A stretch of DNA of 48,255 nt from Chloroflexota bacterium. Its GTDB lineage: Bacteria > Chloroflexota > UBA11872 > UBA12225. The translations under genes and the position numbers were made by a program. Where the stretch lies: NCBI GenBank assembly GCA_009693165.1, contig SHXX01000009.1:1-48255 (forward strand). The letters run 5' to 3'. The notes beneath the pieces were generated by a model. The model had not been told where the DNA came from. It worked only from the letters and a program-made list of their open reading frames with translations, and did not search any database. Positions 10,766 through 24,670 of the stretch are shown piece by piece (positions within the stretch are counted from its first letter, which is position 1; each line of letters opens with the position of its first letter).

Positions 10766-11602
10766 ATGACCCCTTCGAGCGTCTTCCTGCCGGCGCTGTA
10801 TGTACGCCTCGCCGTCGCACGGGTTCGCGGGCAGATGCGATACCGTGTTGGTTTCCTGTTGATGATCCTCGGCGTTTTCGTGGCAAACGCCTTCGAGTTC
10901 GTCGCCCTCCTCGTCCTGTTCGGTCAAGTCAAGGTGCTTGGTGGGTGGTCCGCCCACGAGGTCGCCCTCCTTTGGGGAATGTCGCAGATGTCCTTCGCGA
11001 TTGCCGAGGCGTTCGGTCGTGGGTTCGAGGGGCTTGCCCCTCAAGTCCGTTCCGGAGAGTTCGATCAGGTGCTCGTTCGCCCGCTTCCGGTGTTCTTCCA
11101 GGTCTTTGCCTCTGCATTCGAAGCGCACCGGATCGGCCGGTTCCTTCAGGGCGCGACGGCAGTCTGGTACGCCAGGAGCGATCCGGCATCGATCCCGTGG
11201 CAGGCGTCGCACTGGACGACGCTGATCTTCGCGGTGACAACGGGTGCAGTCATTTTCTTCGCGACGTTCGTGCTCGGTGGCGCCTGGGCACTGAGGGTCG
11301 TGGACGGGCAGGAGCTGATGAACACGTTCACTTACGGTGGCACCACGTTGGCAAGCTACCCCCTTGAACTGTTTTCCGATCCGATCCGCCGTGCGGCAAC
11401 GTGGATCCTGCCTCTCGCGTTCGTGAACTACTTTCCGGCCCTCGCACTGCTCGGGCGCGTCGGACCACCCGGCATGCTCCCGTTCGGCCTCACGCCAATC
11501 ATCCTCGCGATGTCTGCCCCGGTGGTCGCCATGACTTACCTTGGGGTTGCCGTGGTGGTTTGGGACCGTTCCGTCATGCGTTACCAAGGGACAGGCACGT
11601 GA
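10766..11602 (+). CDS. ABC-2 type transporter permease (COG3694-like)
   Basis: MTPSSVFLPALYVRLAVARVRGQMRYRVGFLLMILGVF...; RSGEFDQVLVRPLPVFFQV is typical of these paired permeases. Confidence 0.8.
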   Translation: MTPSSVFLPALYVRLAVARVRGQMRYRVGFLLMILGVFVANAFEFVALLVLFGQVKVLGGWSAHEVALLWGMSQMSFAIAEAFGRGFEGLAPQVRSGEFDQVLVRPLPVFFQVFASAFEAHRIGRFLQGATAVWYARSDPASIPWQASHWTTLIFAVTTGAVIFFATFVLGGAWALRVVDGQELMNTFTYGGTTLASYPLELFSDPIRRAATWILPLAFVNYFPALALLGRVGPPGMLPFGLTPIILAMSAPVVAMTYLGVAVVVWDRSVMRYQGTGT

Positions 11603-12722: not shown

Positions 12723-15700
12723 TCAAGGAATTTCACCATCCACCGGTGTGACTGCCCCGACATCAATCCACGAATAGTTGCCTGTCTCGGGATTGCGCAC
12801 GAAGTACCTATCGGCTTCACGTTCAAGCACCTGATACACAACCGGTGCGCGACCGATCGGACCGAAATCTGTGGCATCAGCGTATGGCGTGGACCAGACG
12901 TGGGTTGCCGGGTCGGTTGAGCGAACATATCTGGGCGTCTCCGCACACCCTGACATGCAGGGTGCGGGCGTCGCGGGCGCTGTTTCCGCGCTCTGGACGT
13001 CAGGAGGAGGAGTCGTTGGAGGGCCGGAAACGTCTACTGCGTCAACGTCAATCCATGCGTAGTTGCGGGTGATCGGATTGCGGACGTAATAGCGATTGGC
13101 CTCCCTTTGGAGGACCTGATACGTGACAGGAGCACGCCCGATCGGCCCGAAATCCGTCGCATCGGCATATGGCGTTGACCAGACGTGAGTGGAAGGATCC
13201 CTTGTCCGTACGAACTCAGGCAGGGACGACACCGGTGGCGTCGGAGCCTTCGGAGCGGTTGACGCATTGGCCGTCGCTGACGGGGTTGCCCCCGGTTCAT
13301 CCACGGCATCAACATCAATCCACGCGTAGTTTCCGCTGACAGGATTGACCACGTAATAGCGGTTCGCCTCACGTTTCAGGACCTGGTAGGTGACTGGTGC
13401 CACACCGATCGGTCCAAAGTCGGTGGCGTCGGGATGCGCTGAGGACCACACTCGCGTCCGGGGATCACGGGTCCGCACCGTCGCCGGCAGCGACGGAGCA
13501 TCGCTTCCTGTCACACGTGGAGCCGGGGCCGGGGCCACGTCACCGCGATTACTCTCTTCGCCGTCCGGCGGACCGGACGGGGCAACCGACTGGGCGTCAA
13601 TCCACCCATAGCCCTTGGTGACCGGGTTGTACACGGAGATGCGCCCGCCGACTTGTGGGCCAATGACCGGGAAGATGGTGTTGGCGGGTGCAGCGAGACC
13701 AAAGTCCGTCGCATTGTCGTCCGGACCTGAATACAGGTGTGCAGATCCGGACAAATTGACAAGGAACGCCGGTTGCAAGCCCACAGGCAGGAACAGCGTG
13801 CGATCAACTTCGCCCGCGGCAAGTGACCAGTCCTGGCGACCGGTCGAGGGATTGAACTCCGCCGGCGACCTCAGGTAGCCAATGAAGTCACCGGCCGAAT
13901 CGCGAGTCGCGTGGAGGTATGCTGGCGTCTGCCCGGAAGGCACGCGAAGCGATGGCATCGAGAAGGCAACGCGCGCATCCGGAGCAGTTGCAAGCACCGT
14001 CAGTCGGAACGGAGCCGCCACAGGTACGACACTGCCCCCACCGAGACTGCCTTGTTCGACCTCATTCAATTTGGGCGGTGCCGGTTCGAACACCATGGCC
14101 GACGCATCCGCAGGTGGGTCGACAAACGGCACCACTCCAGCCAAGGCACCGTAGGTCAACGGCAGGGCCAGTGAGGGCCAGTTGCCGGACTTCGGACGCT
14201 CAATCCGCGCCTGCTGAGCTGGGCGGACAAGGATGACTACCGATCGACGCACAACCGTGGAGGCCGAGGCTCCACCGACCTCGGCACCTTCGACGAAGAA
14301 TGACGATGCCTGTGGTTCGTCCAGCGAGAACGTGAGAATCTCGCGTCCGTCGGCGTCAACCTTCATCACGTCTGGCACCGCGACACTCACCTTCGCACCC
14401 GACTGAGCCAAGTCAGCAAGCGCGCCGAAGACCTTCCCCATCTCGGTAAGCCCCAGTGTCGAAGCCAGATTGCTGACCGTCGCCAGTTCACCGGGTGAGA
14501 AGCTGGCGAGTGTCGAAACAAGCGCCCGTGACTGCGACGGGTCGACCGATCCGACAACGGCCGTGACGGCCGAACGCTGATTGGGTGACAACTCGTCCAG
14601 GACCCGAAGCAACGTAATCGTCGCAGCACTGCCCGCCGACTTCAGGGCATCACTGAAGGCAACCTGCTGTTGTGCGGTGATCACCACAGGTTCCGCGTCG
14701 GGCAACCCACCGGTTGACCGGCCTGGGTTTGGCGAGACCGCAGGGCCCGACAAGGATGGTTCAAAGGTTGGCGGCAACTCAACCGTCGGCGCGACAGGCA
14801 GTGGCACACGGATCACGCGGGGCGGGTCGGGATCGGACCCTCCCGACCCACCCGGAGGCCGGTTTGACAAAACATAGTTCGATGACGCGAGCGCAAACTT
14901 GCCAGTGTGCGGACCGACCGGGTTACCGGCCAAGTCCGTCCCGGGGGCCCCCGAGGCAACCGCAATCCCGATCGTCGATGTGGGATCGCCAGCACCGATG
15001 ACGCCGGTCAGGCTGACAGTGATGGCGAAGCCGGTATCGGAACCCGGAACCGGTGCGAATGTCTTGATCGTCGGCACGCCGATGATGCCCAAACCGGTTT
15101 TCACCATGAACGTATCCGTGGAGGCGTTCTTGACAGGTTCGGTCATTGACACAATGAAGTCGACGGGAAGGGTGCCCGGTGTAAGTTCAGGGACCAGAGC
15201 CGGTCGGGTGACCGAACCTATTTCCGGGCGAACGGTATCGAGCGTTTTGGTTGTCTCGAAGTACGGCGATCCCGATCCGAGAACGTTGCCCGCGGCATCG
15301 ACAATGGGCGACGGTGATACGAGGCGCACCTTCAAGGTCGAACCAGCATCTCCCGGCGCGCTTAGGCCACCCAGACCGACCGACAAACTGTAGACCGATC
15401 CTGACCCGGATACGGCAATGGTGGGTGTGCCTGAGACTGATGGGCCACGTTCAACGGAGAACGCCGTCGCGGTGACATTGGACACCGACTTGGTGAATAC
15501 CACCTGGAACGTGAGTGAGTTGGTCCCATTGATCCGGGGTTCCACCAACCCATCTGTCGGTGTTGCAGTTGTCAGTCCGGGCGGGACAGTGTCGAGCGTG
15601 AAGGTGTCACTTGGTGTCGGGGTAGTTCCGGTAGTGACGGTGTTTCCGGCACTGTCTGCGATCATCGCCCCGCCTGGAATGTCCAGGCCAAGCGTCGAGG

Positions 15701-18700
15701 ACACGGCGCCTGTTGCGGTGGTCCCGGCCAAATCGAGGGCGACGGTAAACGTGGTGGTGGCAGATGATGCACCCGGTGTGACGGACTTCACCGTCGGGGT
15801 ACCCGTGACCGAAGAGCCGGTCGCAACCGTGAATGTGTTCGTGGCAACGTCATTGACCGGTTCCGAGAACGTGACCGTAAAGGTTGGAGCCGATTGTGCA
15901 CCGATCAGCGCCGGGGTGCCCGCCGCACGCGTGATTGATGTGACGCGCGGGGCCTCCGTGTCCAGGATGTAGCCAGAAACCGACCCCGTTGGCGTGGTGC
16001 CCGGCAGGGCGTTTCCGAATGGGTCCTTGATAACCGCGTCGCCAGCGACACCGATGTCGATTGAAGATGTCGATCCCCCAACGCCAGTCACGCCGCCAAG
16101 ACCGAGGGTGACGATGTACGCGGAACTCAGACCAGAAACCGTGGTTGTTGGATCGGCGACGACCGTGGCGAACGTCGGGATCGCCACGACCCCCGATCCA
16201 ATCCGAGCCACAAATGACGAGGTAGCCACTCCCGAAACCGGTTCCGAGAAGACAACCCGGAAACTTGGCGCAGTTAGCCCCCGGGTTATCGCCGGTGACG
16301 CAGTCCGGGATATCGAAGTCACTGTCGGAGCGTCGGTGTCGACGATGAATGCGGTCGAAGTGCTGCTTCCGGCAAATGTCGCCAGGTTTCCCGCAGCATC
16401 GGACAGCGGTCTTGTCGGGTTCGCCTTGAGCTTGAGGGTCGCTGTCGCATCGCGCCCGCCGTCGCCCCTGACAGCGGTCATGCCGACGGCGACCGTCCAC
16501 ATTCGGTCAGTTGCACCAATCACTGCATTGGGTTCAATGAGGTAAGGGTTTTGCCCATCTCCCAATTGTCCGGACGAACCAAGACCCCAGCATGATCCAA
16601 GCCCAGCGACGGTCACACCGCACGTGTGCGATCCAGCAGGCAGGATTGACGTGACCAGCCCGAAGCCAGCAACCATGCTGACCGGTGTGTTTGCTGCGAC
16701 CTGACTGCCATTTCCAATCTGGCCGGTCGCATTTGCACCCCAGCAGAAACCGGTCCCGCTTGTACTCACGCCACACGTACCGGATTGCCCGGCGTCGACT
16801 CTTGACATCCCTGAGCGCACGACGGTCGGGGACAACTTTGCTACGGAAGTCGCGTCCCCAATCTGACCGGTTTCGTTTGCACCCCAGCAATAGATTGTCG
16901 AACCCGTCGTGAGTCCGCATGAGTGTGATCCACCCGCGGAAACGGACATCCACACCGGCTGGCTGCCAACGCTGGACACAACCACCGGCGCCGGCGCGGT
17001 GCGCGATACGCGGGTTCCGTCGCCAAGCTGACCGCTCGCGTTGGCACCCCAGCACGCAGCTACGGTTCCGGAGGTCAGCCCACACGTGTGTGATCCTCCG
17101 GCACGCACGGTTGTCCACGTTGACGACGCCTGACCGGACAGCGGGTTCACCGCCACCGGCGCCGTCCTCGACGCGGTGCTTCCATCGCCGAGTTGTCCAT
17201 CACCGTTCCCACCCCAGCAGTACGCTACATTCGCGGTGGTGGTCCCGCACGAGTGGGTGGCACCCGCGCTGATCGTTGACCAAGTCAGCAACCCGGACAC
17301 AAGCGTGGGTGATGAACGGCCGTTCAGGTCTCCGCTTGTGCCGTTTCCGATCTGTCCTTCAAGATTTGATCCCCAGCAATACGCAATTCCCGCCACCGTC
17401 AATCCACAGGAGTGGTCATATCCGGCCGAAATGGCCTTCCAGGCAAGTCCACCCGAGACGCGTGTCGGCAACTTGCGCGATGTCGTGGTTCCATCCCCGA
17501 GCTGCCCAGACGCGTTATCACCCCAGCAATACGCCGTACCGGTTCCGACAATCCCGCAGGAATGCCGATCGCCTACCGTCAGCATAGTCCAGGTGAAGCC
17601 ACCACTGATGTCGGCGGGCAATGGCCGAACGGCCGAGAAACCCGCACCCAATTGCCCAGTCTCGTTCTTCCCCCAGCAATTGGGAACCAGACCGGTCGTG
17701 ATGCCGCAGGTGTGTGATGCCCCAACGGAAATCGATCGCCAAGTGAGTGAACCCGCCACTGCCGTCGGGGAGCTGCGCAATGTGGTCGTCGTATCTCCAA
17801 CCTGTCCGGCGGCGTTCGCACCCCAGCAATAGGCAGCACCAGATTGCGCAAGGCCACAGGTGTGGGAACCGGCCGAACTGCCACTCGCGGCAACCGTGGC
17901 CCATGATATCGAACCATTTACCAGCGTCGGGGTCGTCTGACCAGACAGCGAGCCGACTCCCAGTTGGCCACTCGTATTCAGGCCCCAGCACCACGAGGCA
18001 CCGGCTTGGGTCACGGCGCAGGTGTGGCGGTACCCGGCCGAAACCGCCTTCAGCGTGAGTGGCACCGACAGCGTCGTCGGGGCGGTTTGACCGGTGGTCG
18101 TACCGTCGCCAACCTGACCGGAACCGTTCGCCCCCCAGCAAAGCGCGGTGCCCTCCAGTGTGCCGCTCACGGTCGCAGTTAGCCCGCAAGTGTGGTCACC
18201 ACCTGCAGACAGCGATGCCCATCGGCGCGCGGTGACGACTGCCGTCGGCACGCTGCTGACGGTCGTCGTTCCATCACCGATCTGGCCATCGGAATTCCTG
18301 CCCCAGCAATGTGCTAGGCCGGCGACGGAGTACGTCGACGACGCCGTGACCGCGCACGTGTGTGCCGTACCGGCGGCGACCGACGTCCATGAGGCAGCAC
18401 TGACGACCGCGACCGGTGATGTCCGGTCGATCAAAGTCCCATCGCCAAGTTGGCCGCTGTCGTTGGCGCCCCAGCAATACGCCTTGCCGGTTGTGGTCAC
18501 CCCGCAGGTAAACCCAGAGCCAGAGGCCACGGAACCCCAGACGAGTTCACCGGCAACCAGCACTGGTTCGGTCCGAGACACAGACGTACCATCGCCAAGC
18601 TGGCCACGGTCGTTTGCGCCCCAGCAATATGCGGTACCCACGGTCGTCACCGCGCAAGAGTGGCCGGCGCCACTCGACACGGATGCGTAGGCCACGTTGG

Positions 18701-21700
18701 TGGCCGTAATCGTTGGTGTCCCGCTGATCCCGGCACCGGCTTCAAGCACGTATGACCCGGTGGCAACTCCTGAGACCGCCTCCGAATACGTCACCGCAAA
18801 CTCGGGAGAAGGGACCCCAGCGGTTGGCACCAGAGTGCCTGCTGGGAAACCTGCACTCGCCTTTGGCACGATCGAGACAAGGGTTGGCCTGACGTTGTCT
18901 AGGTTGAACGGCTGGTTGACACCCGTCGGGTCACTTGATGTGAGGGCGGTGCCTACGGTGTCGGCTACCGCTGACGCCGGGGAGACGCCGAGCCCAATGG
19001 TTGACCCGGCACCGCCATCTCCCGTGACCGACGCCGTCGAGAGTGAAACGGTGAATGTAGTGGTCGCCACCGACACCCCGGGCGTCACTGATGCCACACT
19101 TGGCATCCCAATGATCCCCGGCCCGCGCGCCACATAGAAGCTGCCCGCACCCACGCCAACGACCGCTTTCGAAAAGACCACCTTGAATGACGGGACGGTC
19201 TGCGCATCAATCCGAGATGCCGATCCGACGCGGGATATCGACGAAACTGAAGGCGCAACGCCGGTTGCATTGTCGAGGATGTAGCCCTGTCTCGATCCTG
19301 AGAGTGATGGTGAAAGGGCATTTCCCGACGCGTCAACAACACCCGGTGATGAGGTCAATCCAAGCGTGAAGGTGGCGCTTGCCGCCCCATCACCCGTCAC
19401 CCCACTCAGGTTCACAAAGACAGTGAATGTCTGGCCTGAACCCGACGCAGTGGCCACCGACCGGTCGACCACGGCTGGAAGTAGCGCGATCGACACGTTG
19501 CCATCACCGACTTGCCCGTTGACCGCCGTGCCCCAGCACCAGGCCTTGCCCAGCGAGTTGACCCCGCAGGTGTGCTGGAACCCAGCCACGATCGACTGCC
19601 AGCGGTCGTTGCCACCGACGGCAGTTGGTGCGGTGCGGGATGTCGTCGTCCCATCCCCCAGCTGACCCATGCCGTTGGCGCCCCAGCAGTACCCAATGCC
19701 CGCGGTGGTAATGCCGCAGGTATGGGAATCACCGGCCGAGATCGATGACCACTGGAAGCCGGAAACCGAGGTTGGCACGGTCCGTGAGGTGCCCGAACCA
19801 TCGCCTAACTGACCTGAAGCGTTATATCCCCAACAGGATCCTGAGCCCGTCTGGGTTACGCCACAGGTATGCCGTCCGCCTGCCGAAACCGTTGCCCACT
19901 TGGTGGATCCGCTGTCGTAGACCGCAAACGGAACGGTGCGCGTCGTCCCGGACGTTCCATCGCCGACCTGGCCGTCGGCATTGGATCCCCAGCAATACGC
20001 CAAACCTGCCGTCGTGACCGCACAGGAGTGCGCGCCACCGGCGGCAACCGACGTCCAGGCAAGTTGACCACTGACAGGTGAGGGTGTTGAACGGGAGGCC
20101 TGCGATGCGTCACCCAACTGCCCACTCGAGTTTGCGCCCCAGCACGAAACGGCTCCGCCAGTGGTGGTCGCACAGGAGTGAGAGGTTCCCGCCGAAATGC
20201 TTGATACCCCGGTCAGGCCCGAGACCACAGACGGCGAAGTGCGGTTGATTGTTGAACCATCGCCAAGGCGTCCGTCGCTGTTCGTCCCCCAGCAATAGGC
20301 AAGGTTCGGCGACGCACTGGCTACCGAACAGGCGTGCGATGAGCCAGACGAGATCCTGGACATCGGCACGGCACCAGATGAAGCCACTGGCGTGGCATTC
20401 AACAGAGATGATGCTCCGGCAACCTGTCCCTCATCGTTCGCACCCCAGCAATTCAGGACACCACCAGTGGCGATAGCGCACGTGTGATCACGGCCGGGTG
20501 CGACCGCAGACCACTGACGGTCGCCCGATACTTGGACGGCTGAGGCGCGCGTCGAGGCAGCGATTGGGCTTCCCAACTGTCCACTCGTGCCTGGCCCCCA
20601 ACAGTCCAGAATGCCAGACGTTCGGATCGTGCACGCGTGAAACCCTCCAACGCTTATCCGGGTCTGGGTCGTGTCACCACCAATGAGTGACGGTTGTGAT
20701 CGACTGACCAGCCCGCCAACCTGGCCGACCGACGCTTCACCCCAGCAATACAACTTGGAACCCTGGGTAAGGGCACATGTCTGGTCGCCTCCCGCGTCGA
20801 TGACACTCCAGGTCAACCCTCCAGCCACGATCGTTGGCGTACTGGCTGCCGAAACCGTGGCTGTGCCAAGTTGCCCGCTGCCGTTCGCACCCCAGCAATA
20901 CGCCTCCCCACCGGTTGTCAGGCCACAAGAATGGCTGTTCCCCACGTTGATGGCCTGCCAGGCGCGTCCACCAGACACAATCGTCGGTGTGTTCCTAGTC
21001 ACCGTCGTACCGTCACCGACCTGACCGAATGTGTTCACACCCCAGCAGGACGCAGCGGTGGACTGCTGGCCGCAAGTGTGCGCGCTCCCAGCGGAAATCG
21101 AAGTCCAACCTGTGCCGGAGATGAGGGTAGGGACATTGCGGTTCGAAGTCGTCGTATCGCCCAACTGACCGCTGGCGTTCGCACCCCAGCAGTACGTATT
21201 CCCGCCCATCAAGATGCCGCACGTGTGGTTGTCACCTGCGCTGATTGCAGTCCATTGCGCCGCCGGCACCCCGGCGGGGTCGGACACACGAGCTGGAGAC
21301 GTCGCATCCGTTTGGGTACCGTTCCCAAGTTGACCACTGTGGTTCCGTCCCCAGCAGTACGCCCATCCTGCCTGGGTGATACCGCATGTGTGAGAATCAC
21401 CTGAAGCGAGGCCCTTCCACGTGTAGCCAGCAGCTATGGCAGATGGCGACGTGGCTGTGGTCGCAGTGCCATTTCCAAGCTGGCCGTAGCCGTTTGCGCC
21501 CCAGCAGTATCCCTTGAGATCGATGGAGATCCCGCACGTGTGCATCAAGCCGGCAAAAACGTCGGCGTATGCAACGCCAACAGACAATGTAGGACTTGAC
21601 GTGATGCCAGAGCCGGTCACGATGCTGAACGTAGCGGCCGACACACCAGTCACCGGTTCATTCGTCGTGACCGCGAAGGCGGCTTCAGTGGTTCCAGCGG

Positions 21701-23636
21701 TTCGTTCAGCGGCACCGTTCGCCCGGGTGATTGACGTGATCGACGGCTGTACGGTGTCTAGGAGATAGGTCTCGCTCGTGACCGACAGCGATGTCGATGC
21801 GAGTTGGTTCCCGCCGGTGTCCACGATGACAGATACCGAGGACAGTGCGAGCCCTATGGTCGCTGATGACCCGCCATTCGCGGTGACACCCGCCAGACTC
21901 ACCGTGACCGTGTGAGACGTTGCGGTTGTCGAACCCGGGGACACCGAGAAAACAACTGGCGTCCCAGTGATGCCACTTCCAGTGACAATCTTGAAGCTGC
22001 TCGTCGCCACACCGGTGACCGCCCGACTGAAGGACACCACAAAGGTGGGACTGGCAGCTCCCGCACCGACACGTGGGTCAGTTGCACCACGCGCAATCGT
22101 TGAGATGACCGGCTCTGCGGGAATGATGACGGGCTGGGGCTGCGTGGCAGCCGCCGAGCCGTCACCGATCTGGCCGGAAGCGTTCGAACCCCAACAATAC
22201 GCCTTGCCGGTCAGCGTAATGCCGCACGCGTGGGATCCGCCAGCACTCAGCTGCGCCCATTTGAGTGAGGTCAGGATGGCTGTCGGAGCCGAACGGTTCT
22301 GGGTGCCACCGTCGCCAATCTGGCCAAATCCTCCAGAACCCCAGCAGTATCCGACATCAGTGTTATCCGTACCGCATGTTGTGTTTCCAGAAGAGGTGAC
22401 GGATTTCCATAGGCGTGTCCCCGATACGGGCGATGGAGAGAGCTGGGTGACCGTCGTCGAGTTCCCGACCTGACCGCTTGAGTTACCGCCCCAGCACGAG
22501 AGGGCGTTCGAGGCGGTGACCCCGCAAGTGTGGTCGGAGCCAGTGGCAATCGGGCTTAGGGCCGCGTTCCCTGAAACTGCCACCGGGGACGATCGCGAAA
22601 CCGTTGTGCCATCTCCCAACTGTCCGGTGGCGTTGAAGCCCCAGCAATAGGTCGCGCCAGACGTCAATTTGCCACACGTGTGGTACTTGCCCACCGAGAT
22701 CAAGGTGAACGGTATGCCACTAAGACCGGTCGTCTGGACAGGGTTTGGCGACAACCGCGACGTCGTCGTGCCGTCACCAAGGGCGTGGTTACTGTTGTCT
22801 CCCCAGCAATGGGCAGTGCCTGTGTTGCTCAGGCCACAGGTGTGACGCACGCCGGCAACCACTGTCGCCCAGGTGATGCCACCCACAACAAGTGTCGGTA
22901 CCAATCGTGATGTCGTCGTTGCGTCGCCCAACTGGCCGTAGGTGTTGCTACCCCAACAGTAGGCCGTGCCCCTCGTGGTGACAGCGCAGGTGTGTTCGAA
23001 CCCGGAACTGAGGACATCCCACCCGGTGCCCGCGACCTCGCCGGTTGGAATTGCAACCGAGACAGGGGTGAGTCGCTTTGTAGTCGTCCCGTCACCGATC
23101 TGGCCCGACCCATTGCTTCCCCAACACCACGCCTCGCCGATCGACGAGACGGCACAGGTATGGCTGAACCCTGCCGAAATGCCTTCAAATGCCGCTTCGA
23201 ATGAGGCTGACGCTGCCCGGACAACGCCACTGCGGGTCCGGCGGACAATCGGTGACGACTGCGATGGCGGCGTAGCGGTTGCACCAACCACGGACATCGT
23301 CGGGGAGGCCATGGCAATCGTCGGTGCTTGTGTAGACGCAGTCGTGGGCGCAATCGTGGCGAAGGAAACTGTTGACGTTGCAGTATGGGCAAGGGCAACC
23401 GACGGGGTTGCAAGACTTTGGCTGGTACGTGACGCCACGACCGTGGAAGTGAACACGAGACCAGACGAAGCGTCGGAGCCCGCAACCGGCACCGAAGCCG
23501 TCGGAAGGGTGGCCGCGCGCATCGGTAACTCGTCGCCAGAAGCGCCCCGCAGTTCAACCGACCCGGCAGCAATCCCGCCAAGCAAGAAAAGCGCGGAAGC
23601 AATCCGGCGGAGGTGGTCGACTGCTTTCCCCGTCAT
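12723..23636 (-). CDS. Giant secreted RCC1-repeat / Ig-like / SH3-like repeat protein
   Basis: One ORF (12723..23762 in the track); ATG at 23636 gives a signal-peptide-like N-terminus (MTGKAVDHLRRIASALFLLGGIAAGSVE). 35 SHTCGxTxxGxxYCWGxNxxGQLGDGT repeats, eight Ig-like units, four C-terminal ATDFGPIG...YAWIDVDAV repeats. Confidence 0.92.
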   Translation of the reverse strand: MTGKAVDHLRRIASALFLLGGIAAGSVELRGASGDELPMRAATLPTASVPVAGSDASSGLVFTSTVVASRTSQSLATPSVALAHTATSTVSFATIAPTTASTQAPTIAMASPTMSVVGATATPPSQSSPIVRRTRSGVVRAASASFEAAFEGISAGFSHTCAVSSIGEAWCWGSNGSGQIGDGTTTKRLTPVSVAIPTGEVAGTGWDVLSSGFEHTCAVTTRGTAYCWGSNTYGQLGDATTTSRLVPTLVVGGITWATVVAGVRHTCGLSNTGTAHCWGDNSNHALGDGTTTSRLSPNPVQTTGLSGIPFTLISVGKYHTCGKLTSGATYCWGFNATGQLGDGTTVSRSSPVAVSGNAALSPIATGSDHTCGVTASNALSCWGGNSSGQVGNSTTVTQLSPSPVSGTRLWKSVTSSGNTTCGTDNTDVGYCWGSGGFGQIGDGGTQNRSAPTAILTSLKWAQLSAGGSHACGITLTGKAYCWGSNASGQIGDGSAAATQPQPVIIPAEPVISTIARGATDPRVGAGAASPTFVVSFSRAVTGVATSSFKIVTGSGITGTPVVFSVSPGSTTATSHTVTVSLAGVTANGGSSATIGLALSSVSVIVDTGGNQLASTSLSVTSETYLLDTVQPSITSITRANGAAERTAGTTEAAFAVTTNEPVTGVSAATFSIVTGSGITSSPTLSVGVAYADVFAGLMHTCGISIDLKGYCWGANGYGQLGNGTATTATSPSAIAAGYTWKGLASGDSHTCGITQAGWAYCWGRNHSGQLGNGTQTDATSPARVSDPAGVPAAQWTAISAGDNHTCGILMGGNTYCWGANASGQLGDTTTSNRNVPTLISGTGWTSISAGSAHTCGQQSTAASCWGVNTFGQVGDGTTVTRNTPTIVSGGRAWQAINVGNSHSCGLTTGGEAYCWGANGSGQLGTATVSAASTPTIVAGGLTWSVIDAGGDQTCALTQGSKLYCWGEASVGQVGGLVSRSQPSLIGGDTTQTRISVGGFHACTIRTSGILDCWGPGTSGQLGSPIAASTRASAVQVSGDRQWSAVAPGRDHTCAIATGGVLNCWGANDEGQVAGASSLLNATPVASSGAVPMSRISSGSSHACSVASASPNLAYCWGTNSDGRLGDGSTINRTSPSVVSGLTGVSSISAGTSHSCATTTGGAVSCWGANSSGQLGDASQASRSTPSPVSGQLAWTSVAAGGAHSCAVTTAGLAYCWGSNADGQVGDGTSGTTRTVPFAVYDSGSTKWATVSAGGRHTCGVTQTGSGSCWGYNASGQLGDGSGTSRTVPTSVSGFQWSSISAGDSHTCGITTAGIGYCWGANGMGQLGDGTTTSRTAPTAVGGNDRWQSIVAGFQHTCGVNSLGKAWCWGTAVNGQVGDGNVSIALLPAVVDRSVATASGSGQTFTVFVNLSGVTGDGAASATFTLGLTSSPGVVDASGNALSPSLSGSRQGYILDNATGVAPSVSSISRVGSASRIDAQTVPSFKVVFSKAVVGVGAGSFYVARGPGIIGMPSVASVTPGVSVATTTFTVSLSTASVTGDGGAGSTIGLGVSPASAVADTVGTALTSSDPTGVNQPFNLDNVRPTLVSIVPKASAGFPAGTLVPTAGVPSPEFAVTYSEAVSGVATGSYVLEAGAGISGTPTITATNVAYASVSSGAGHSCAVTTVGTAYCWGANDRGQLGDGTSVSRTEPVLVAGELVWGSVASGSGFTCGVTTTGKAYCWGANDSGQLGDGTLIDRTSPVAVVSAASWTSVAAGTAHTCAVTASSTYSVAGLAHCWGRNSDGQIGDGTTTVSSVPTAVVTARRWASLSAGGDHTCGLTATVSGTLEGTALCWGANGSGQVGDGTTTGQTAPTTLSVPLTLKAVSAGYRHTCAVTQAGASWCWGLNTSGQLGVGSLSGQTTPTLVNGSISWATVAASGSSAGSHTCGLAQSGAAYCWGANAAGQVGDTTTTLRSSPTAVAGSLTWRSISVGASHTCGITTGLVPNCWGKNETGQLGAGFSAVRPLPADISGGFTWTMLTVGDRHSCGIVGTGTAYCWGDNASGQLGDGTTTSRKLPTRVSGGLAWKAISAGYDHSCGLTVAGIAYCWGSNLEGQIGNGTSGDLNGRSSPTLVSGLLTWSTISAGATHSCGTTTANVAYCWGGNGDGQLGDGSTASRTAPVAVNPLSGQASSTWTTVRAGGSHTCGLTSGTVAACWGANASGQLGDGTRVSRTAPAPVVVSSVGSQPVWMSVSAGGSHSCGLTTGSTIYCWGANETGQIGDATSVAKLSPTVVRSGMSRVDAGQSGTCGVSTSGTGFCWGANATGQIGNGSQVAANTPVSMVAGFGLVTSILPAGSHTCGVTVAGLGSCWGLGSSGQLGDGQNPYLIEPNAVIGATDRMWTVAVGMTAVRGDGGRDATATLKLKANPTRPLSDAAGNLATFAGSSTSTAFIVDTDAPTVTSISRTASPAITRGLTAPSFRVVFSEPVSGVATSSFVARIGSGVVAIPTFATVVADPTTTVSGLSSAYIVTLGLGGVTGVGGSTSSIDIGVAGDAVIKDPFGNALPGTTPTGSVSGYILDTEAPRVTSITRAAGTPALIGAQSAPTFTVTFSEPVNDVATNTFTVATGSSVTGTPTVKSVTPGASSATTTFTVALDLAGTTATGAVSSTLGLDIPGGAMIADSAGNTVTTGTTPTPSDTFTLDTVPPGLTTATPTDGLVEPRINGTNSLTFQVVFTKSVSNVTATAFSVERGPSVSGTPTIAVSGSGSVYSLSVGLGGLSAPGDAGSTLKVRLVSPSPIVDAAGNVLGSGSPYFETTKTLDTVRPEIGSVTRPALVPELTPGTLPVDFIVSMTEPVKNASTDTFMVKTGLGIIGVPTIKTFAPVPGSDTGFAITVSLTGVIGAGDPTSTIGIAVASGAPGTDLAGNPVGPHTGKFALASSNYVLSNRPPGGSGGSDPDPPRVIRVPLPVAPTVELPPTFEPSLSGPAVSPNPGRSTGGLPDAEPVVITAQQQVAFSDALKSAGSAATITLLRVLDELSPNQRSAVTAVVGSVDPSQSRALVSTLASFSPGELATVSNLASTLGLTEMGKVFGALADLAQSGAKVSVAVPDVMKVDADGREILTFSLDEPQASSFFVEGAEVGGASASTVVRRSVVILVRPAQQARIERPKSGNWPSLALPLTYGALAGVVPFVDPPADASAMVFEPAPPKLNEVEQGSLGGGSVVPVAAPFRLTVLATAPDARVAFSMPSLRVPSGQTPAYLHATRDSAGDFIGYLRSPAEFNPSTGRQDWSLAAGEVDRTLFLPVGLQPAFLVNLSGSAHLYSGPDDNATDFGLAAPANTIFPVIGPQVGGRISVYNPVTKGYGWIDAQSVAPSGPPDGEESNRGDVAPAPAPRVTGSDAPSLPATVRTRDPRTRVWSSAHPDATDFGPIGVAPVTYQVLKREANRYYVVNPVSGNYAWIDVDAVDEPGATPSATANASTAPKAPTPPVSSLPEFVRTRDPSTHVWSTPYADATDFGPIGRAPVTYQVLQREANRYYVRNPITRNYAWIDVDAVDVSGPPTTPPPDVQSAETAPATPAPCMSGCAETPRYVRSTDPATHVWSTPYADATDFGPIGRAPVVYQVLEREADRYFVRNPETGNYSWIDVGAVTPVDGEIP
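12738..13790 (-). repeat. Four SH3-like repeats (ATDFGPIGxAPVTYQVLxREANRYYVRNPxTxNYAWIDVDAV)
   Basis: TDFG codons recur near 12860, 13148, 13414 and 13700. The two C-terminal copies are near identical; the most N-terminal copy is divergent (ATDFGLAAPANTIFPVIG...YGWIDAQSV). Confidence 0.85.
16500..18700 (-). repeat. RCC1 cluster 3: 14 repeats
   Basis: CWG signatures near 16588, 16737, 16881, 17045, 17210, 17369, 17519, 17670, 17819, 17980, 18130, 18300, 18468, 18618. Confidence 0.9.
19450..21575 (-). repeat. RCC1 cluster 2: 14 repeats
   Basis: CWG signatures near 19530, 19680, 19828, 19986, 20137, 20287, 20440, 20596, 20738, 20888, 21038, 21182, 21348, 21498. Confidence 0.9.
22130..23195 (-). 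repeat. RCC1 cluster 1: 7 repeats (~150 bp period)
   Basis: CWG codon signatures (ccccagca/ccccaaca on + strand) near 22189, 22338, 22489, 22638, 22800, 22950, 23119. Confidence 0.9.
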
Positions 23637-24175
23637 GTTGGCCTTCAACCCAGAATGATTATTGACAATTCGAAATGACATAAAATTGTTCAACAATGCC
23701 CCACTGCGGCAGCGTGAACCTGTCCTGACCGTGAACGTACCGTGCAGATGGGAATTACGCAAACATCATCGAACTCGAATGATGGTGAACCCATCAATTT
23801 ATCTACTTGCTGGCGGTGCGGCACTTCATTCATCACGGAAAGTCTTGCGTGCCAGTCCGTTCACGCGTCGTCTCGCACGCTTGCACGGACCGATACCAGT
23901 GCGGACCGGGAAGGTGAGGTGGAACGCCAATCATCTGTCACGGCACGGCCTCCGCGCCTGCTTCAAGGAAATCCCGATGCCAACCACTGCGCATCGGGAG
24001 TAGGATGTGCGTACACCAATCAGGAACGAAGTCCAGACGGGCAGGGGGCGCGATGGTGGGCCGGAACGATCCGCACGGGTGGCGACCGGAGTGTCCATGG
24101 GGAGCTGTCTCCCATAGCGCCGTTCGCCTGGCATTTCTTGACGTTCCCGGAGTGTCTGGACCTTCCGCGAACGCG

Positions 24176-24670
24176 ATGGCGGCTACGGGGACAGCCGAAC
24201 CTCCAATTCGCCGGGTAACACGCCTCTCGTGGGCATGCAGCTTCACGGGTGTCCTGATCTTCGTTTCGATCGTGTCGTGGTTGCTTGCGATACACGCCAG
24301 AGTGATCACCGATGGGTCCTCGGGAAGGATCCCGCTTGCATCGGCCCCGGCCGGATTGCTGATCGTCGCCTTGGCGTTCGGGATCGCCACATGGGTGGGT
24401 GATATCCTGCCGGCGTGGATCCAGTCCGACCGACAACCACATGACCCCTCCGTTCCGTTGCAGTTTCCCATCGCCGGGTGGTGCCACGACTGCAGACGCC
24501 AGTTCGTGGATCCCGGGCCTGGAATCCGCACCATGGGGAACCCGTCTCAAGAAGTGCCCAGGTGGGCCGGACGAGTGCCTTTGAACCCAACGGACGGTAG
24601 CGTAGCGGGGCGGTCTGCCACGGACCAAGGACTGGACGCACCAACGCAAGCGGCGAGGGACTTGAACTGA
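24176..24670 (+). CDS. Hypothetical small membrane protein with C-terminal CxxC
   Basis: In ORF 24005..24670: two hydrophobic segments (WACSFTGVLIFVSIVSWLLAI, AGLLIVALAFGIATWVGDILPAW) then GWCHDCRRQF; start uncertain. Confidence 0.4.
   Translation: MAATGTAEPPIRRVTRLSWACSFTGVLIFVSIVSWLLAIHARVITDGSSGRIPLASAPAGLLIVALAFGIATWVGDILPAWIQSDRQPHDPSVPLQFPIAGWCHDCRRQFVDPGPGIRTMGNPSQEVPRWAGRVPLNPTDGSVAGRSATDQGLDAPTQAARDLN

Follow-up and report, generated by a model that had tools for sequence, protein, structure and literature searches.

A giant, probably secreted RCC1 protein of Chloroflexota with blades in sets of seven and two 14-blade arrays nested in immunoglobulin-like domains

How are dozens of RCC1 blades accommodated in a single exported bacterial protein, and what might such a protein do? 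The question is raised by the 48,255-nt stretch of DNA analysed here (the window), which corresponds to contig C33 in a Chloroflexota genome of 2.2 Mb and 82% completeness. A previous reading made from the sequence alone had described an exported protein of ~3,640 aa. The gene is a single stop-free frame from ATG to stop (Table 1), and its N terminus reads by eye like a signal peptide, so that both the size and the predicted export agree with that description. The alignment with the orthologue begins at MT.KAVDHLRRIA, which supports the called start. A Ser/Thr/Pro-rich linker follows, reaching to residue ~148.

Table 1. Features of the giant RCC1 gene, in order along the protein after the whole-gene entry (positions in the window)
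Feature	Position	Strand	Basis or remark
Whole gene, 3,637 aa	12723..23636	-	One open frame; ATG start kept in orthologue
Signal-peptide-like N terminus, residues 1-33	23538..23636	-	By-eye reading; conserved in orthologue
RCC1 array A, 7 blades	22137..23189	-	Pfam, CWG count
Ig1, uninterrupted	21747..22115	-	Own Ig profile, E 7e-47
Ig2, N-terminal half	21579..21749	-	Ig profile column 2 to ~57
RCC1 array B, 14 blades, within Ig2	19461..21575	-	CWG count, Ig profile
Ig2, C-terminal half	19266..19448	-	Ig profile to column 124, E 5.7e-13
Ig3, uninterrupted	18888..19256	-	Ig profile, E 2e-47
Ig4, N-terminal half	18705..18884	-	Ig profile from column 17, E 1.7e-10
RCC1 array C, 14 blades, within Ig4 at loop used in Ig2	16521..18695	-	CWG count, Ig profile
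Ig4, C-terminal half	16335..16514	-	Ig profile columns 65-123, E 5.5e-7
Ig5-Ig8, four uninterrupted domains	14859..16334	-	Ig profile, E 7e-40 to 4e-49
Predicted helical domain, residues 2988-3078	14403..14675	-	Six helices, pLDDT ~70-75, otherwise poor model
Four SH3-like repeats ending W-I-D	12741..13778	-	Repeat profile; four copies in relatives too

The blades had been given as 35 in the order 7+14+14, and we obtained the same figures. CWG motifs (n=35) form blocks of 7 (residues 171-481), 14 (residues 711-1367) and 14 (residues 1671-2349) with a spacing of ~50 aa, and the models for the RCC1 repeat (PF00415) and RLD (PF25390) were matched far beyond their cut-offs (WD40_RLD, E=7e-296; RCC1, E=1.5e-217, with 31 stretches above threshold). 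The DNA signature CCCCA[AG]CA likewise occurs 35 times across the whole window, always inside the giant gene. It is, however, the reverse complement of the CWG codons, so the DNA and protein tallies are one count taken on opposite strands. The sequence-only reading had presented them as two counts; the number stood, but not the independence.

That reading had also raised the concern that assembly collapse might have altered the repeat number. No exact repeat in the gene exceeds ~18 bp, Ns are absent and independently assembled relatives have equal counts; we therefore consider collapse unlikely and rejected the blade count as an assembly artefact. Genomes of the genus carry the giant gene at an equivalent locus, flanked on one side by the ABC transporter gene (at 11401 in the window) and on the other by the gene found at 24005. 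The orthologue on contig 110 of genome G001 has 7+14+14 blades, and that on contig 10 of G002 (MAG UBA2235) has at least 5 in array A, which is interrupted by a gap of Ns, followed by 14+14. G003 has these parts on separate contigs, one holding the first array and another the final four blades of array C. For 33 of the 35 blades the best match in G001 was the blade at the same position, indicating that blade identity is fixed between orthologues. The neighbouring gene (24005..24670, + strand) has no Pfam match and is the giant gene's neighbour in G001, G002 and G003 as well. On the other side, 4.5 kb from the giant gene, is a class-A-like beta-lactamase gene (PF13354; 7252..8247, - strand), with synteny kept in locus L088.

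Whether blades come in sets of seven was addressed by a census of RCC1 arrays found with PF00415 and PF25390 in Chloroflexota genomes. Multiples of seven accounted for 55 of 59 intact arrays from 33 genomes (33 of 7 blades, 19 of 14, one of 21 and two of 28), counting arrays that are not independent samples, as some share one genome or genus (a binomial figure for them is thus no more than indicative), and including short spacers bridged by grouping in the 21-blade array and in one 28-blade array. The search models are biased to multi-blade arrays, not to multiples of seven. The remaining four arrays had 6, 6, 15 and 26 blades; none of the 59 had 8-13. Counts of 8 at the first census pass were an artefact: these arrays are really of 7, with one blade divided between both ends, the arrangement of a closed propeller. 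The rule of seven is broken most clearly by L122 (G187), whose array has 15 blades that score highly and repeat regularly every 50 aa.

The earlier proposal of seven-blade propellers, one single and two double, gains from this search for homologues in multiples of seven, and from the WRAP propeller of Nostoc punctiforme, whose uninterrupted run of 14 blades folds into two rings of seven (PMC9218822). The 14-blade arrays might instead close as a single larger ring or wind as an open superhelix. Blades 7 and 8 are joined without a linker or a seam in the sequence and keep the ~50-residue spacing, and blades seven apart were no more similar to each other than other blade pairs. AlphaFold gave only a low-confidence model of array B with its host (pLDDT 46, pTM 0.36), which we took, like that of the C-terminal 748 residues (pLDDT 41), as a hint only. 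However, array lengths leap from 7 to 14, the nearest solved structures (RCC1, UVR8 and HERC2) are all seven-bladed, WRAP offers a 7+7 precedent, and in 14-blade arrays the mean blade score is weakly periodic, dipping at positions 7 and 14 (permutation p ~0.03). We consider the larger ring or superhelix improbable and, more generally, a continuous or non-seven arrangement unlikely. Counting and the known fold lend good support to reading 14-blade arrays as 7+7, and the giant protein would thus carry sets of seven throughout. Foldseek searches with the low-confidence array B model returned UVR8 as best match (TM 0.57 by target) and other RCC1 domains as well, which only restates the sequence evidence. 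The lack of raised similarity at offset seven gives no sign of a duplicated seven-blade unit, and we rejected duplication as the source of the 14 blades. Arrays B and C showed no preferred register between them and were likewise rejected as recent mutual copies.

Double sets by themselves are not new, since 14-blade arrays are common in Chloroflexota; giant surface proteins are already known from the phylum too (PMC10608941). The architecture had been called unusual, which does not hold for the 14-blade arrays but does for their position: the unusual part is their insertion inside immunoglobulin-like domains. From the six uninterrupted repeats of ~125 aa between and after the RCC1 arrays we built a profile, and found eight related domains in the giant protein, six uninterrupted and two split. 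The profile is broken at columns ~57-65 of 125 around arrays B and C in the window, G001 and G002; the C-terminal half after array C was also found in G003. Wherever the genomes are readable, both 14-blade arrays thus lie inside Ig2 and Ig4 at one common loop. The domain matched no Pfam family and gave no match of weight in the PDB, and its presumed kinship to immunoglobulin domains is taken from the appearance of its sequence. It occurs in 39 of 399 sampled Chloroflexota genomes.

Among 19 further loci that encode this domain (L134 and L161-L178), several of them cut by contig ends, no array was inserted in it; L174 has 14 blades and then such a domain. A paralogue on contig 188 of G001 (L041 / L086) consists of blades followed by Ig1, Ig5-Ig8 and the C-terminal region; the block Ig2[14]-Ig3-Ig4[14] is missing from it. 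Its flank is without the conserved ABC transporter neighbour, and it is therefore probably at another locus. We lean, with some reserve, towards the view that closed seven-blade propeller pairs nested in one fixed immunoglobulin-like loop give a branched multivalent display, and that the host-guest unit is gained and lost blockwise. A partial literature search found no description of paired propellers nested in one such loop.

A proline-rich linker leads from the immunoglobulin-like domains to the predicted helical domain, which is followed by the four SH3-like repeats. The repeats matched no Pfam family and may adopt an SH3 fold; searches of the C-terminal region against Pfam, NCBIfam and PHROGs gave nothing of weight, and no toxin domain was matched within the last 748 residues. 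Inspection by eye revealed neither a sortase signal nor a transmembrane segment in the giant protein; sortases are present in the genus. Of the 72 cysteines of the protein, 70 form one pair per blade (C-x9-CWG, mostly ten residues apart), and the pair together with CWG was found in all 35 blades. The two non-blade cysteines are located near the C terminus. The repeats of the plant receptor CRINKLY4 have a nearly identical motif (C-x10-CWG) and were predicted to form a seven-blade propeller with one disulfide in each blade (PMC4617170). Genes for VKOR and a DsbA-like protein are adjacent in G001 and G002 and present in pieces in G003; neither was found in the window's own, 82% complete genome.

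Taken together, these results make it likely that the giant protein is a secreted multivalent binding protein, probably attached to the cell wall and probably an adhesin or ligand-binding receptor. The blade counts, the split host domains, the cysteine pattern and the conservation are read directly from the sequences; for this model we infer ring closure, stalk geometry, surface location and ligand binding. Every seven blades would close into one propeller, giving five propellers. In the paired propellers two seams would face each other, bringing chain entry and exit together, and because these are then close, we propose that a 700-residue insert could fit a short hairpin loop with the host still folded. 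The immunoglobulin-like domains would form a stalk, the two propeller pairs side arms and the single propeller the tip. A disulfide in each blade would stiffen the protein outside the cell, the SH3-like repeats may anchor it in the wall, and the blade surfaces could bind ligands carried by particles, polymers or adjacent cells. Giant genes of Chloroflexota often encode surface proteins (PMC10608941).

The large size, the many immunoglobulin-like domains and the wall-binding-like C terminus would also suit a structural component of a surface coat or sheath without a specific ligand. Blade sequences, however, vary along the protein and are conserved position by position across species, which fits specific binding faces better, and we hold a coat or sheath to be rather unlikely. 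Polymorphic toxin systems employ long repeat stalks, and this giant, secreted, repeat-rich protein could be the stalk of a contact-delivered toxin, the repeats serving as a presentation rod. We consider this highly improbable: a toxin or processing domain was not found in the giant protein, the SH3-like C terminus is ~82% conserved between species whereas toxin tips vary, and downstream no immunity-like gene was recognised, the conserved neighbour being an ABC transporter. The protein might, finally, bind beta-lactamase in the manner of BLIP-II, which is a secreted RCC1-like propeller (PMC9218822), given the nearby beta-lactamase gene with its conserved synteny. Several unrelated genes separate the two, however, and BLIP-II is one small domain, so that a stalked protein of 35 blades far exceeds the size that inhibition requires. 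Such a function is hardly credible to us, and the closeness of the beta-lactamase gene is probably a coincidence.

The binding protein that we favour differs from each known system with which we compared it. RCC1 and RLD domains (RCC1, UVR8, HERC1/HERC2 and RPGR) share the repeat family and the ~50-residue blade, but their solved members are single seven-blade rings, whereas the giant protein has five sets per chain, is bacterial and secreted, has cysteine-paired blades and bears two pairs nested in immunoglobulin-like domains. The ectodomain of CRINKLY4 / ACR4 is likewise extracellular and RCC1-like, with seven blades and cysteine pairs before CWG (PMC4617170), and an entry for it (7a0j) was among the structure matches. 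Its single propeller precedes TNFR-like and kinase domains, and it is without an immunoglobulin-like stalk or nesting; as Pfam matched no kinase in the giant protein, the likeness is one of working, not of membership. BLIP-II is a secreted bacterial RCC1-like propeller as well, but a single-domain beta-lactamase inhibitor, and WRAP is of the WD40 type, not RCC1, with near-identical blades on a STAND ATPase. Other Chloroflexota RCC1 proteins of 14-28 blades (such as L048, L097, L102 and L129) have arrays of 7, 14 or 28 blades, which usually begin near the N terminus; none was seen inside an immunoglobulin-like domain.

The giant protein thus offers a natural test of sevenfold propeller counting where sets lack linkers, and the census of array lengths makes the rule of seven testable across bacteria. 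It is also a case in which very large domains appear to be accepted twice at one loop of an unrelated domain. For an uncultured lake lineage of Chloroflexota related to MAG UBA2235, it is a candidate adhesin. The window's genome encodes a second RCC1 protein of 1,022 aa with 14 blades (L038, G000 contig 5). On contig 90 of G001 (L039), a 28-blade RCC1 protein has a second one directly behind it, truncated by the contig end after at least 16 blades. The C-terminal GWN...C...GY domain of L038 is common to L039 and L050.
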